The position numbers and the translations under genes are program-made. Shown here piece after piece: positions 5,618 through 40,250 of a DNA stretch of 45,835 nt; positions within the stretch are counted from its first letter, which is position 1, and the number at the start of each line of letters is the position of its first letter. The DNA is taken from positions 1 to 45,835 of the forward strand of contig JAIPJT010000018.1 of assembly GCA_021733985.1 (NCBI GenBank), written 5' to 3'. Under the pieces are notes generated by a model that searched no databases, had not been told where the DNA came from, and saw only the letters and a list, made by a program, of their open reading frames with translations. The stretch comes from Victivallales bacterium (lineage in GTDB: Bacteria; Verrucomicrobiota; Lentisphaeria; Victivallales; GWF2-38-69).

Positions 5618-6646
5618 ATGTCAAATATTAAACGGAAATTTACATTAATTGAAATATTATTAATAATTGGAATAATTGCTATATTATTTAGCATTTTAAT
5701 ACCGGCAATTACTAATGTTAAAAAGCAGGCAGACATTGTAAACGACATAAACAATCTAAAGCAGTTAAGCCTCGGGATGGTAATGTATGCAGAGTTAAAT
5801 GATAATTATTTACCTTATACCGAGGAACTTGCAGGTACTGATTATAAAGCTAAAACTTTATGGCTTTTGCTCCCTTATCTAAGCAATAATACTGATATAT
5901 TTTCTCCGGGAAATATTGAGGTCGGAGCAAAACAGATTTATTCTTTAATTAAAAATAACCCGACAGATGAAACAGTTCCGGCACCCGGTTATGCGTACAG
6001 TCCTTATTATGATAATGGAGAAAGAGAAAAGCCTTTAAGCCTTTTGAATGTAACTGAAAAAATTCCCGTATGTGCGACTTATGCCAAAGCTTACGGATAT
6101 TATATTGTTTCTACTACAACTCTCGGGCGTTCAATTAAAGAAAAGGGGCGCATTCTAAATAGTAAAAATATTGCATACAGTGAACTTGAAACTGAAATAA
6201 ATCAGGGGGTTGTCGGTAGTCATATCCTCGAAAACAACACTAAACTGCTTAAAGAAGTATATAAAAATGAACTGATTCCGTCCGGACCATATTCCAGGCC
6301 GGCTTTGTTTGATAGTACCGGTTCATATACTTTTGGGGATCCGCCAACTTCAAAAGTGGAATGGATCGGAAACGATGCAGGTTATGTTAGAGTTACTCCA
6401 AATGAGTCCGGTACTTTTACCTTTACTCAGCCCGAAGATGCTGAGAGGACTTCGTGGCATACTGACAGGGGAGAAACATGGACCTGGGAAACTGACGGTA
6501 CAACGTACGATTTCAAAATTGATGATAGAGGTAGAGCTTCAGTTAGTATAGATGGAGAAACTAAATGGTGGTCGCACTCTGATTCTGAAGCAGATGATTT
6601 TGAAGAACTGCCTGATGCTGCAAAAGAATATTTCAATTTTAATTAA
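5618..6646 (+). CDS. prepilin-like protein with N-terminal methylation motif
   Basis: 342 residues starting with a short basic leader, then K-F-T-L-I-E followed by a long hydrophobic helix, the type IV prepilin/pseudopilin signature with glutamate at mature position 5. The segment N-N-L-K-Q-L...M-Y-A-x-x-N-D-N-Y-L-P resembles the large prepilin-like families of Lentisphaerae, Planctomycetes and related candidate phyla. The rest is an extracellular domain ending in a Trp-, Asp- and Glu-rich tail. I chose ATG at 5618; a TTG at 5612 would add two residues. No good ribosome binding site is visible. No other pilus or secretion genes are nearby, so it is an orphan whose filament or machinery must be encoded elsewhere. 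Confidence 0.75.
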   Translation: MSNIKRKFTLIEILLIIGIIAILFSILIPAITNVKKQADIVNDINNLKQLSLGMVMYAELNDNYLPYTEELAGTDYKAKTLWLLLPYLSNNTDIFSPGNIEVGAKQIYSLIKNNPTDETVPAPGYAYSPYYDNGEREKPLSLLNVTEKIPVCATYAKAYGYYIVSTTTLGRSIKEKGRILNSKNIAYSELETEINQGVVGSHILENNTKLLKEVYKNELIPSGPYSRPALFDSTGSYTFGDPPTSKVEWIGNDAGYVRVTPNESGTFTFTQPEDAERTSWHTDRGETWTWETDGTTYDFKIDDRGRASVSIDGETKWWSHSDSEADDFEELPDAAKEYFNFN

Positions 6647-6663
6647 ACCGTATACATAAATTT

Positions 6664-6736
6664 TCTATAGAAAAGTTTTATTACTCCTGTAGTAAAGCTG
6701 TCTGTGAAAAGGAGGTAAACATTCTATGGATTGGGT
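6664..6736 (+). repeat. duplicated fragment of the ech operon 5' region (copy 1)
   Basis: All 73 bases are identical, in three consecutive blocks, to 8768-8783, 8886-8932 and 9004-9028, the leader and first codons of echA. Here the blocks are contiguous. The copy contains AAAGGAGGT nine bases before an ATG (6726) and reads M-D-W-V, as echA does, then diverges and stops after 13 codons. It is therefore a gene-start remnant, not a gene. The remainder of 6647-6987 shows a GC-rich, partly palindromic stretch near 6812-6834 and CCCCGCTGCGG near 6892 that I cannot assign. Confidence 0.85.
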
Positions 6737-6987
6737 GAAATTTGATATAATTTTAAAAAGCTTGTAGATTCTATAAAACTTAACCCAATATTATACTGTT
6801 GTGTTGTGACATGGCAGGGCGTCGCCTGACAGAGGCAAAGTCATTTGAGATAGCGACTACTCAAAATCTTTAATTACAGGCATATGCTGTGCAACAAGCT
6901 TCCCCGCTGCGGTTTGAATCTTACAACTATTAAATGAATATTACTCTGGTTTAAAAGATATATAACATTAAAAAGAGAGGAATGCAA

Positions 6988-7854
6988 ATGAATACTTTAT
7001 TGCATTTTACAGGATCCAGAAGTATTGCTGCTGCTGTTTTGATATTGGTGGTGTCCGTATACGGTTTTCCCCTATATTCCTATTCGGACAGCTTAAATAA
7101 TTCCAGTCAAAGTAAAGCTGCTGCTCGCGAAAGAAATAGCAATTATAAGATTGTAACAGAGTTTTACCCTCCGTTTAATTTTACAACTGTCTCAGGTGAT
7201 TTAACCGGGCTTTCCGTTGAAGTTGTAAAGGAAGTTTTGAACAGGCTTAACATCAAAAGAGTACCAGTCGAAATGATGGAATGGGAAAGAGCATTGGAGA
7301 CTGTAGAAAAAACACCTGATACGATGATTTTATCTATAATCAGAACTAAAGAGAGAGAAAACAAACTGAACTGGGCAGGCCCGATTGTTCAGGATGAAAG
7401 AAATTTATACTGTCTTAATGAGATTGAGGGTAAAAAAATAAATTATGATATTTCATCTTTGGCAGACGTAAAAAGATATTCAATATGTGTGGAGAAAAAA
7501 GGTGCATTAGCAGAATATTTTAAGGAAAAATTGCCGGGGAAAAAACTGATTTACTCAAATAATGCCAGAGGAGTCATTGAAAAGATTTTGAAATTTGAAA
7601 CTCAGCTGAGTGCGTGCTCAAAAATGGTTTCGGCTTATACTTTGAAATTAATGGGCAAATCTCCCGATAAATTAAAGTGCGTTTATAAAATTGACCGTTC
7701 CCCGTTATATGTCGGTTTCAATAAAAATATTCCGGAAAGTTTTGTAAACAGGTTTCAGAAGGAACTTGATAAATTTAAGAAAACAAAAAAATATAAAGTT
7801 ATACTTCAGAAATACTATAGGACTAATGTAGAAAAAGTGTCATTTTTGAATTGA
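6988..7854 (+). CDS. orphan family-3 extracellular solute-binding protein (first of two)
   Basis: 288 residues with a hydrophobic N-terminal export signal (roughly residues 12-30) and a periplasmic binding protein fold of the SBP family 3 type, which binds amino acids or related small molecules. Family features are Y-K-I-V-T-E-F-Y-P-P-F-N near the start of the mature domain, G-L-S-V-E-V-V-K-E-V-L, M-E-W-E-R-A, and L-S-I-I-R-T-K-E-R-E. ATG 6988 is preferred over 6982 because AGAGG lies seven bases before 6988 but directly against 6982. No permease or ATPase gene is adjacent. It may serve a transporter encoded elsewhere or a sensory role. The next gene is a diverged paralogue 25 bases downstream. 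Confidence 0.85.
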   Translation: MNTLLHFTGSRSIAAAVLILVVSVYGFPLYSYSDSLNNSSQSKAAARERNSNYKIVTEFYPPFNFTTVSGDLTGLSVEVVKEVLNRLNIKRVPVEMMEWERALETVEKTPDTMILSIIRTKERENKLNWAGPIVQDERNLYCLNEIEGKKINYDISSLADVKRYSICVEKKGALAEYFKEKLPGKKLIYSNNARGVIEKILKFETQLSACSKMVSAYTLKLMGKSPDKLKCVYKIDRSPLYVGFNKNIPESFVNRFQKELDKFKKTKKYKVILQKYYRTNVEKVSFLN

Positions 7855-7879
7855 ATTATTATTTGATGGAGAAAGTATT

Positions 7880-8725
7880 ATGTCCAATAAACGGTTCGAA
7901 TTTTTAAAAACGGGAAAACTGAAATTATTGCTGCTTTTAACTATTATTTATTGTTTCTGTATCTGTCCAGTATTAAATGCTGAAAACCAAAAAGTTGGCA
8001 CCGCAAATGCAAATACCGGTAAATATAAAATTATTTCAAGTCCATATCCACCTTTTAATTATTATAAAGGCGATGAAATAGTCGGCCTTTCCGTGGACAT
8101 TATGAGGGAAGTCCTACAGGAAATAGGCTGGGAACATGTCGAGATGGAGCTTATGGAATGGGATAAGGCATACAAAACAGCATTAGAGGAAGAGAATATT
8201 ATTGTGCTTTCAATTGTTAGAAACCCCAAAAGGGAAAAAGAATTTAAATGGGTGGGACCGATAGCAGTAAATTATATTAACATGTATTCACTGGCAGAAA
8301 TTGAAGGGAAAGCAGTAGATTATATGATTTCTGCATTAGAGGATGCTAAAAAATATTCAGTCGGTGTAGAACTTGACAGCTCTACAGCGGAATACCTCGA
8401 ATCCCGGAACTTTAAATATCTCAATTACTCTAAAGGAATACAGAAAGTTGTAGAGAATTTATTAAATTTTAAAACTCAGCTCATAGCCGGTTCAAAGGTT
8501 GTAATATACCATATACTAAGGGAAAAATGGCTTGTGGCAGATACTGTAAGAAAAGTCTATCCCATTGAACATGTTAATCTTTATATTGCTTTTAACAAGA
8601 ACGCTCCTGATAAAACTGTAGATAAGATCCAGAATGCTCTCGATAGAGTCAAGCGGACCGGAAGATATCAGGAAATTGTTTCCAAATACTATAAGGAAAA
8701 ATCGAACGGCTTGAGAAATCTGTAA
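7880..8725 (+). CDS. orphan family-3 extracellular solute-binding protein (second of two)
   Basis: 281 residues with a signal peptide ending near L-N-A-E (about residue 35), then the same fold as the previous gene. The two share Y-P-P-F-N, G-L-S-V-D/E, M-E-L/M-M-E-W, L-S-I-V/I-R, W-V/A-G-P-I, E-I-E-G-K and the C-terminal Q-x-x-L-D-x-x-K/R pattern, so they arose by tandem duplication but have diverged widely. A GGAG sits in front of the ATG. The ligand cannot be read from sequence. The gene ends about 80 bases before the upstream edge of the ech leader, and the pair lies between the two copies of that leader. Confidence 0.85.
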   Translation: MSNKRFEFLKTGKLKLLLLLTIIYCFCICPVLNAENQKVGTANANTGKYKIISSPYPPFNYYKGDEIVGLSVDIMREVLQEIGWEHVEMELMEWDKAYKTALEEENIIVLSIVRNPKREKEFKWVGPIAVNYINMYSLAEIEGKAVDYMISALEDAKKYSVGVELDSSTAEYLESRNFKYLNYSKGIQKVVENLLNFKTQLIAGSKVVIYHILREKWLVADTVRKVYPIEHVNLYIAFNKNAPDKTVDKIQNALDRVKRTGRYQEIVSKYYKEKSNGLRNL

Positions 8726-8767
8726 TAAAGACTCGTTAAACAATGTTTTGACTTCATTTAATCTCTA

Positions 8768-9028
8768 TCTATAGAAAAGTTTTTGTTTATTTAATACCTG
8801 TTAGTATTTACATTTAAAAAAAAATTGATATAATCTATATAAATTCTTTATTTTTTATTCGCATTTCAAGCTAACCAAAAAAAATAAAAGTTTTATTACT
8901 CCTGTAGTAAAGCTGTCTGTGAAAAGGAGGTATGCCTAACGAATTATATTTATTGTCGTAAATAACAAAAAATCATCAACGTTAAAATTTAAAACTAAAA
9001 AATGAGGTAAACATTCTATGGATTGGGT
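8768..9028 (+). repeat. ech leader, interrupted original of the duplicated segment (copy 2)
   Basis: Blocks 8768-8783, 8886-8932 and 9004-9028 equal the contiguous copy at 6664-6736. The two extra stretches here are flanked by direct repeats: AAAAGTTTT at 8775-8783 and 8886-8894, and GAGGTA at 8927-8932 and 9004-9009. This is the pattern left by slippage deletion in copy 1 or by insertion in copy 2. The first extra stretch carries the ech promoter; the second separates a strong AAAGGAGGT from the echA start. Confidence 0.8.
8807..8834 (+). promoter_or_regulatory. sigma-70-type promoter of the ech operon
   Basis: TTTACA (8807-8812) and a perfect TATAAT (8829-8834) are separated by 16 bases. 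Transcription would start near 8841 and give a leader of about 175 bases before echA. The site lies wholly inside the stretch that is absent from the upstream duplicate. Confidence 0.6.
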
Positions 9029-10892
9029 AACATTTCTTATTTTGTTCCCCCTTATTCCGGCCGTTATTTTACTTTTTACTAAGTCGGTCCAGCTCCAGAG
9101 GGTAGTAGTGCTTGTATCCTCGGCACTAATCATTCTGGGGTCTGTCGGTTTAGCATGTAATTATATGCAGGCTGGAGGGACATATCTGCCCATTTCATCC
9201 GGGTTCTTTAACGGATTAGTTATTCTGGGTGATATTGTACTTGCGCTGGTGTTTCTTTATGTTTGTAGAAAGCTGCCAATTAAAAAATACTGGATACCGC
9301 TAATGGTGGTTATCCAGTACGGTATGGTTGTTACAGCTGATCTTACAGGAGGAATACCTGAAACAAACCGTTATCTTTATATTGATAACCTTTCAATTGT
9401 AATGGCTCTTATTATCGGAGTCGTAGGCTCGCTTATTGCCGTTTATACAGTCGGTTATATGCAGCATTACCACGAGCAGCACAAGGAGATCAAAGATAGA
9501 AGATGCACTTTTATTGCAGCTATTTACCTGTTTTTCTTTGCAATGTACGGAATTATTTTTTCTAATTCTATCACATGGATTTATTTTTTCTGGGAAATCA
9601 CGACTCTTTGCTCATTCATAATGATTGGATACAGCCGGAAAGAAGAAGCTGTTCACAATTCATTCAGAGCATTGTGGATGCTTTTACTCGGAGGTTTAGC
9701 CTTTTCTGTCGGAATAATGTATGCAGCGAATTACTGCGGTACAATCGAATTGCAGAAACTTGTAACAATGAAGCAGTCACTTGTAATTTTCCCGATACTT
9801 CTTCTCTGTTTTGCAGGGATGAACAAGGCTGCTCAGTTCCCGTTCGGCGGCTGGCTACTCGGTGCAATGGTTGCCCCGACACCGTCTTCAGCGCTGCTCC
9901 ACTCAAGTACAATGGTAAAAGCCGGTGTTTATCTGGTGTTAAGGTGTTCGCCGATACTGCAGGGTACAGCATCAGGCGCTATTGTTGCATTTATCGGAGG
10001 TACAAGTTTTGTAATGTGCTCGGCACTTGCCATTTCACAGAGTAAAGGAAAACCTATTCTTGCGTATTCAACAATTGCAAACTTAGGTTTGATAGTTTTG
10101 TGTGCAGGGATCGGTACAAGTTTTACTCTCTGGGCGGCATTATTACTGATAATATTCCACGCTGTGGCAAAAGCTCTGATGTTTATCAGTGTCGGTACTG
10201 TTGACCATCAGACCGGAAGTCAGGATGTTGAAGATATGCACGGCCTGGTTTCAAGAATGCCTATTCTAACTTTTACTATGTTAATAGGACTCGGCGGAAT
10301 GTTTCTTGCACCGTTCGGAATGCTGATCAGTAAGTGGGCGGTGATCGAAGCCCTGGCTGTAAGAAATCCTGTTTACCCTCCTATTGTTATTTTCGGAGGT
10401 TCGCTGATGCTGTTTTTCTGGACCAAATGGATGGGTACCTTAATCTCAGTTGTCGGCAAGCAACCGCCTATAAAAGCTAAAGGAATCGGATTTGATGAAT
10501 GGCTCGGTCTCGGCGGTTTGTCTATATTAACTATAGCTGCCTGTGTCGGATTCCCGTGGATAGGCCATTACTGGATTCAGCCGCTTTACGGATGGAATCC
10601 TATGCTTTCTGAAAGGATAGAAGTTTCAGTTGCGCTTATGCTCGGATTAATGCTGCTACCGCCGCTGATTTTCGCATGCCGCTGGAAAAGACTTGTTCAT
10701 ACAGAACCATATCTGTCAGGCCTGAATGTTGAAAATAAATACGAATACTTAGGATCACTGGGAGCTCCCAGAAGATGGTCTTTCGGAAACTACTATATTA
10801 ATAAATATTTTAGTGAAGCCAAACTTTTTAAGGGCACCATTATCGGGACAACACTTCTTTGGATTCTTATGTTTTTTATGGAGAACTTATAA
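9018..10892 (+). CDS. echA: Ech hydrogenase subunit A (NuoL-like proton/ion translocating membrane protein)
   Basis: 624 residues, almost entirely transmembrane helices, of the NuoL/MrpA antiporter-like family. The functional charged residues are visible: glutamate in F-F-W-E-I-T-T-L (about residue 194), lysines in M-N-K-A-A-Q-F-P-F and H-S-S-T-M-V-K-A-G, and the H...K pair in F-H-A-V-A-K-A-L-M. Length and position as the first of six genes match EchA of group 4 energy-converting hydrogenases. It sits in the cytoplasmic membrane and is expected to couple hydrogen evolution from reduced ferredoxin to ion export. GAGGT nine bases before ATG 9018 supports the start. Its stop overlaps the start of echB by one base. 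Confidence 0.9.
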   Translation: MDWVTFLILFPLIPAVILLFTKSVQLQRVVVLVSSALIILGSVGLACNYMQAGGTYLPISSGFFNGLVILGDIVLALVFLYVCRKLPIKKYWIPLMVVIQYGMVVTADLTGGIPETNRYLYIDNLSIVMALIIGVVGSLIAVYTVGYMQHYHEQHKEIKDRRCTFIAAIYLFFFAMYGIIFSNSITWIYFFWEITTLCSFIMIGYSRKEEAVHNSFRALWMLLLGGLAFSVGIMYAANYCGTIELQKLVTMKQSLVIFPILLLCFAGMNKAAQFPFGGWLLGAMVAPTPSSALLHSSTMVKAGVYLVLRCSPILQGTASGAIVAFIGGTSFVMCSALAISQSKGKPILAYSTIANLGLIVLCAGIGTSFTLWAALLLIIFHAVAKALMFISVGTVDHQTGSQDVEDMHGLVSRMPILTFTMLIGLGGMFLAPFGMLISKWAVIEALAVRNPVYPPIVIFGGSLMLFFWTKWMGTLISVVGKQPPIKAKGIGFDEWLGLGGLSILTIAACVGFPWIGHYWIQPLYGWNPMLSERIEVSVALMLGLMLLPPLIFACRWKRLVHTEPYLSGLNVENKYEYLGSLGAPRRWSFGNYYINKYFSEAKLFKGTIIGTTLLWILMFFMENL

Positions 10893-32633: not shown

Positions 32634-33145
32634 TTTCTGCTGTGTTGCCGTTTCATACTGGTTTTCTATATGTAAGAGTGTTTAATATATATGTTTTAAT
32701 GCGTATAAAACAATAGAACAATCAGCTTTTTATCTAATTTTTTTTGTTGTAATAAAAAAAACTAAATCCGTTTTAAAAAAATCTCTGATTTTTGAAATAT
32801 GTTTGATACAAAAGACGGTAATCACATTCGGGGTCAAATATTGAGAAGCGGTACATCTCCTGCCCCAAAATTACGGAAAAGTACGAGGAGCAGAATCGGA
32901 ACCTGATTTTATCCATAAGTTAAAAATTACTCTTAAAGAACTTAGAGAAACTTGAAACCAGAAACTTTAGTTACTTGTATCCTGGATGATTTCAATATAT
33001 TCTAAATACTATATTCTCGACCTTATCATTCGATAGAGGTCATACCGTATGGTGTGATTGATAAATAAATTAAATCGGTTTTTGTATATGTTTGAATTTT
33101 GTTTTTACTTTTTTTAAAACAGCATTTTAAACAGGTGAGATTAAC
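32634..33145. other. intergenic region with a dispersed repeat and tandem hairpins upstream of the PFK gene
   Basis: No gene is visible. The stretch contains a 25-base sequence (32948-32972) repeated exactly at 40226-40250. Two adjacent hairpins follow: GACCT...AGGTC (33019-33041) and TCATACC-GTAT-GGTGTGA (33040-33057). They share two bases and lie about 90 bases before the PFK start, so they would be in its leader or form an operator. The remainder is AT-rich. Confidence 0.45.
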
Positions 33146-40061: not shown

Positions 40062-40165
40062 ACATTTAACAATAATGCTGCATTGCGGCGCGCTAAGCCG
40101 TCGCCCCGGAGTAGCGGGGCTATGGCTGACACGGTCGGAGATCGCGCCCTACCTTTTGTTTCAGA
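40062..40165 (-). repeat. structured GC-rich repeat, copy C (shortened, inverted)
   Basis: Read on the minus strand it begins like copies A and B (TGAAACAAAAGGTAGG), then jumps to the third hairpin (GCCCCG/CGGGGC, 40103-40120) and the GGCTTAGCGCGCCG motif, which is closest to copy B. The first two hairpins and the terminal CCCTGA hairpin are missing. It lies between gnd and a pseudouridine synthase gene. The rest of 39850-40281 holds no gene. Confidence 0.6.
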
Positions 40166-40225: not shown

Positions 40226-40250
40226 AAACTTGAAACCAGAAACTTTAGTT
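40226..40250 (+). repeat. 25-base dispersed repeat, second copy
   Basis: Exactly the same 25 bases (core ACTTGAAACCAGAAACTTTA) occur at 32948-32972 in the same orientation. Both are intergenic. It lies 60 bases beyond repeat copy C and just before a CAGAC-TTTTC-GTCTG hairpin (40259-40273), which sits immediately downstream of the minus-strand pseudouridine synthase gene. Confidence 0.7.

Follow-up and report, generated by a model that had tools for sequence, protein, structure and literature searches.

A 73-base segment at positions 6664-6736 (forward strand) of a Victivallales bacterium contig is a mosaic partial copy, here called copy 1, of the leader that precedes an Ech-type hydrogenase operon. 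On balance, the sequence points to the long leader at 8768-9028 as the working and older form, of which copy 1 would be a displaced partial copy trimmed at direct repeats. In the window, by which we mean the whole stretch of 45,835 bases that was analysed, the leader precedes a gene for an EchA-like membrane antiporter subunit (9018-10892, forward strand; PF00361 and PF00662), the first gene of an operon that runs to about 14193. A Pfam scan of four products of this operon, with two other frames left out, recognised subunits A, B, C and E by PF00361/PF00662, PF00146, PF01058 and PF00346/PF00374, respectively. Gene content and order agree with those of Ech-type membrane [NiFe] hydrogenase operons, and nothing unusual was noted; we take the enzyme to belong to group 4.

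Copy 1 is composed of the leader blocks A (8768-8783), B (8886-8932) and C (9004-9028), all on the forward strand, joined in unchanged order and orientation with 73 of 73 bases identical. The sequence AAAAGTTTT, which forms the 3' end of block A (8775-8783) and recurs at 8886-8894, is common to blocks A and B, GAGGTA (8927-8932 and 9004-9009) is common to blocks B and C, and merging over both repeats gives copy 1. The preliminary description of this DNA had reported both the identity to three separated leader blocks and the repeats bounding the extra stretches, and all of its coordinates and junctions proved exact. Two forward-strand stretches of the leader are absent in copy 1, namely stretch 1 (8784-8885; 102 bases between the AAAAGTTTT repeats, 111-base period, GC 0.17) and stretch 2 (8933-9003; 71 bases enclosed by the GAGGTA repeats, which have a period of 77 bases, GC 0.20). 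Identity to the leader ends sharply at either edge of copy 1. Similarity between the left flank and the leader was not detectable (474 of 500 shuffles equally good), and a candidate fourth leader piece on the right (6738-6751 against 8821-8834, 13 of 14 bases) was rejected as not significant, being equalled in 124 of 500 shuffles.

The match between copy 1 and the leader greatly exceeds chance expectation. In 20 simulated second-order Markov windows, the longest exact direct repeats measured 15-20 bases, against 47 in the real window, and copy 1 holds a second exact repeat of 25 bases besides the 47-base one. When searched against the whole 2.46-Mb assembly at E 0.001, copy 1 matched just itself and the leader. 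Exact repeats of at least 40 bases within 12 kb numbered two in the 335,659 bases surveyed (the window together with 16 stretches sampled from its genome); one is the 47-base repeat, and the other, in the sampled stretch L122, is a member of a repeat family with 46 genome matches. The event still looks recent, as had been suggested earlier.

The sequence of the joins of copy 1 is characteristic of slippage or of template switching between short direct repeats. Among 17,750 forward skips of 40-149 bases in the 261-base leader, at least 9 bases are shared at 0.11% and at least 6 at 1.1%; for the two joins of copy 1, the shared bases number 9 and 6. The leader has two 9-base repeats, AAAAGTTTT and one A run ending in T. 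At the joins of copy 1, AAAAGTTTT and GAGGTA occur once each; in the leader they occur twice each. Published work on E. coli documents both RecA-independent deletion and switching of the template where homology is short (PMC2621351; PMC5426353). As in RecA-independent deletion by replication slippage, each lost stretch is bounded exactly by a direct repeat (9 or 6 bases, with periods of 111 and 77 bases) of which one copy is left; in contrast, the losses in copy 1 sit in a displaced copy beside an intact original. Copy 1 also resembles the products of FoSTeS/MMBIR (PMC2621351) in its discontinuous duplication, its skips at microhomology at both internal junctions (9 and 6 bases) and a source 2.1-2.3 kb away, whereas its pieces all keep their order and orientation.

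On this reading, a partial leader copy would have landed between a pilin-like gene and the first of two solute-binding genes, 2.1-2.3 kb upstream of its source, and two stretches would have been lost between direct repeats. The copying polymerase may have jumped forward at both repeats during a single template-switching event, or a larger duplication may have come first, with slippage deletions afterwards. Most likely, the event was a minor copying error of a common kind, made at short repeats. A filler event by Ku-based end joining is unsupported because none of the three genomes searched gave a Ku match (one of 14 controls was positive), and a hairpin that would pair ATTGGGT of copy 1 with a downstream ACCCAAT was also rejected (z -0.83).

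The preliminary description had left two alternatives, loss from copy 1 or gain in the leader. A duplication with two insertions or deletions at direct repeats stands; as to direction, gain in the leader is disfavoured, and we prefer loss from copy 1 with moderate confidence because the stretches are single-copy, inverted ends are lacking in them or marginal, and the flanking repeats are unequal (9 bases for stretch 1 and 6 for stretch 2), unlike those that two insertions of a single element would leave. If the compact form were instead the older, the leader would have gained two insertions with duplicated targets, the first bringing the promoter. The perfect direct repeats flanking both stretches fit such insertions, and the compact form owns a strong, well-spaced ribosome-binding site; but a transposon or MITE is expected in several copies and with target duplications of equal length, and a second copy of either stretch was not found anywhere in the 2.46-Mb assembly, and the repeat lengths differ. 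Inverted ends were no better than in shuffles for four of six boundary choices and marginal for the other two. One of these, stretch 2 with the right repeat (12 of 20 positions matching; 7 of 500 shuffles equally good; one of six tests), speaks for insertion, while the other, obtained when stretch 1 was taken with both of its repeats (equalled in 3 of 500 shuffles), takes in AAAAGTTTT, itself nearly palindromic. Since two rare gains within one short leader would also be required, we regard insertion into the leader as unlikely.

Loss from copy 1 was also considered against two family-level relatives, G001 and G002, both of other genera. The comparison used the loci L034 and L035; L042, whose position is not that of a gene start, was left out. 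Similarity of the ech leaders of both relatives to the long leader is limited to the neighbourhood of the start codon (81-82% over 53-62 bases, mostly coding), the region of block C, which comprises the ribosome-binding site GAGGTA, a spacer and the first echA codons. In a search of the leader against 99 other genomes, which scored at most seven candidates in each and may miss weak matches, the matches were confined to the start-codon end (G001 and G002) or to short, mostly AT-rich pieces. The region 6647-6985 gave no match in 40 other genomes at E 0.001. The bases directly before GAGGTA are A-rich in G001, G002 and the long leader alike. Global scores for 26, 30 and 40 upstream bases were 19-28 for the long form versus 7-13 for copy 1; at 50 bases they were mixed (18 and 35 for the long form versus 19 and 17 for copy 1), with G001 scoring 19 with copy 1 and 18 with the long form. 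Composition alone accounts for the scores favouring the long form, which shuffles of the upstream bases matched in 145-390 of 500 cases. Local alignments of other leader parts with the leaders of the two relatives were mostly in the shuffle range, the lowest value being 22 of 500 (block B, G001). Because both relatives retain just the start-codon end of the leader, descent of the compact form from the long form is weakly supported by this comparison. The genes upstream of ech differ in G001 and G002; for metW, a strong match was found in G002, where it lies on a different contig from ech, and none was found in G001.

Between copy 1 and the leader lie two forward-strand genes for solute-binding proteins of the SBP_bac_3 family (PF00497), at 6982-7854 and 7880-8725, whose products are 38% identical. 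The second protein has two paralogues in its own genome (40% and 38%). At E 1e-5 it had no match in 12 other genomes, including both family relatives, and at E 1e-20 it matched two of 288 genomes of the phylum, one being the source genome itself; this gene is thus accessory. The arrival of the pair may be linked to the copying event. A third paralogue (L097 1483-2247, on G000:C45) has a split copy of a GC-rich intergenic repeat close by, and adjoins genes that, by eye, seem to encode an Obg-type GTPase and the ribosomal protein L17. Upstream of copy 1, the frame that we call pilin-like has a start resembling by eye that of a type II pseudopilin, and no Pfam family was found for it. A degraded gene in 6737-6981 was excluded by stops in all six frames. 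Ahead of the first solute-binding gene, 6791-6935 has a GC content of 0.43 between AT-rich flanks; when this segment was searched, no RNA family, long open frame or stable fold was found.

This arrangement also bears on an allelic origin, in which circular DNA of a sister strain, bearing both solute-binding genes together with the long leader, would have integrated by a single crossover where ech begins. The resident leader, which would be the compact one, would then be left upstream, and the leader of the donor would precede ech. The pair is indeed flanked by direct repeats, copy 1 stops within the beginning of echA, as would be expected of a circle junction, and the second solute-binding protein is without a match in either family relative. 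However, it requires a compact allele, which none of the genomes searched displayed (99 with the leader, at most seven candidates being scored in each, and 40 with 6647-6985), and a working ech operon without the promoter of stretch 1, and none of ten neighbouring proteins scanned was of a mobile element; we therefore consider it improbable. That the solute-binding pair is a cassette which ordinary recombination at the 47-base repeat can loop out seems exceedingly improbable. If it were so, excision would join the pilin-like gene to a leader without its own promoter, and cells could alternate ech between its own promoter and upstream read-through.

An assembly artefact, either a misjoin at the 47-base repeat or chimeric reads between the copies, was weighed as well. 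The source assembly consists of 71 contigs, and a repeat of 47 bases can confuse a short-read assembly, but the joins inside copy 1 share just 9 and 6 bases and both of its flanks are unlike the leader. Usual assembly word lengths far exceed 9 or 6 bases; therefore, reads must span these joins, and an artefact is very unlikely.

With respect to function, stretch 1 contains the sole strong promoter match of the leader, a sigma-70-like TTTACA-16-TATAAT with TG before the -10 element (8807-8834, forward strand), which agrees with the consensus at 11 of 12 positions and is a consensus match only. This agrees with the earlier suggestion that one of the extra stretches carries the leader promoter, and copy 1 therefore has no promoter match. 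Block B contains AAAAGGAGGTA and a hairpin (8889-8914) of 11 pairs, intact in both copies, whose loop, UCCU, is the complement of AGGA. Its fold is modestly more stable than shuffles, with z values of -1.29 and -1.82 for 60-base stretches holding it; the latter value is that of 8886-8945, for which 11 of 200 shuffles were as stable. The ribosome-binding site is stronger in copy 1 than in the long leader and has a good spacing. In particular, GGAGG stands 10 bases from the ATG of a 13-codon open frame, MDWVKFDIILKSL (6726-6767, forward strand), which is opened by the copied ribosome-binding site and ATG; the well-spaced site that had been claimed for copy 1 is thus present. Copy 1 keeps four echA codons, after which its reading frame departs from echA, and the 13-codon frame is probably meaningless. 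In the long leader, the strong AAAAGGAGGT of block B is separated by a single base from the ATG that opens a nine-codon frame and serves no clear gene; a gap of one base between ribosome-binding site and ATG is too short for good initiation. Both the stronger site of copy 1, such as a functional leader might have, and this placing of AAAAGGAGGT count against the long leader as the older form.

Because it has no promoter and just four echA codons, copy 1 is probably an inert scrap. Were it instead a working regulatory leader for the solute-binding genes, acting through the hairpin, the ribosome-binding site and the 13-codon peptide, the hairpin with its AGGA-complementary loop intact in both copies would be in keeping with such a role. 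However, the z values of block B folds are modest (-0.94 to -1.92 in five stretches), the fold of 6790-6935 is no more stable than those of shuffles (z 0.03), no Rfam family matches at gathering score, and the peptide frame follows echA for four codons only, and a regulatory role appears highly improbable.

A known RNA and a phage or plasmid origin were rejected as sources of this region. Across 6600-9100, Rfam gave four chance-level hits and none above gathering score, and neither the 50,697 phage records nor the 72,556 plasmid records searched contained a match to 6400-9100. No exact match to the 19-base core of block B was found in the viral collection.

Other repeats were observed in the same genome. 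The GC-rich intergenic repeat mentioned above, of about 83 bases, lies at 40083-40165 in the window and has 46 matches in the assembly, most of them 92-99% identical; several copies are within 160 bases of contig ends, and in three places it is split by an extra 65-80 bases or so (for example, G000:C45:10178-10328). An exact 25-base repeat, AAACTTGAAACCAGAAACTTTAGTT, occurs at 32948-32972 and 40226-40250 in the window, its second copy about 60 bases after the 83-base repeat. On another contig, a 49-base pair with one mismatch (L113 3299-3347 and 4881-4929) is 1582 bases apart in regions without long frames, and its similarity extends into the flanks.

Copy 1 leaves the understanding of the hydrogenase unchanged and is a fresh instance of an already known kind of mutation. 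The perfect 47-base repeat around two accessory genes is a candidate for excision. In this little-studied bacterial group, copy 1 provides a clean example of how fragments of gene starts may be copied and trimmed at short repeats.
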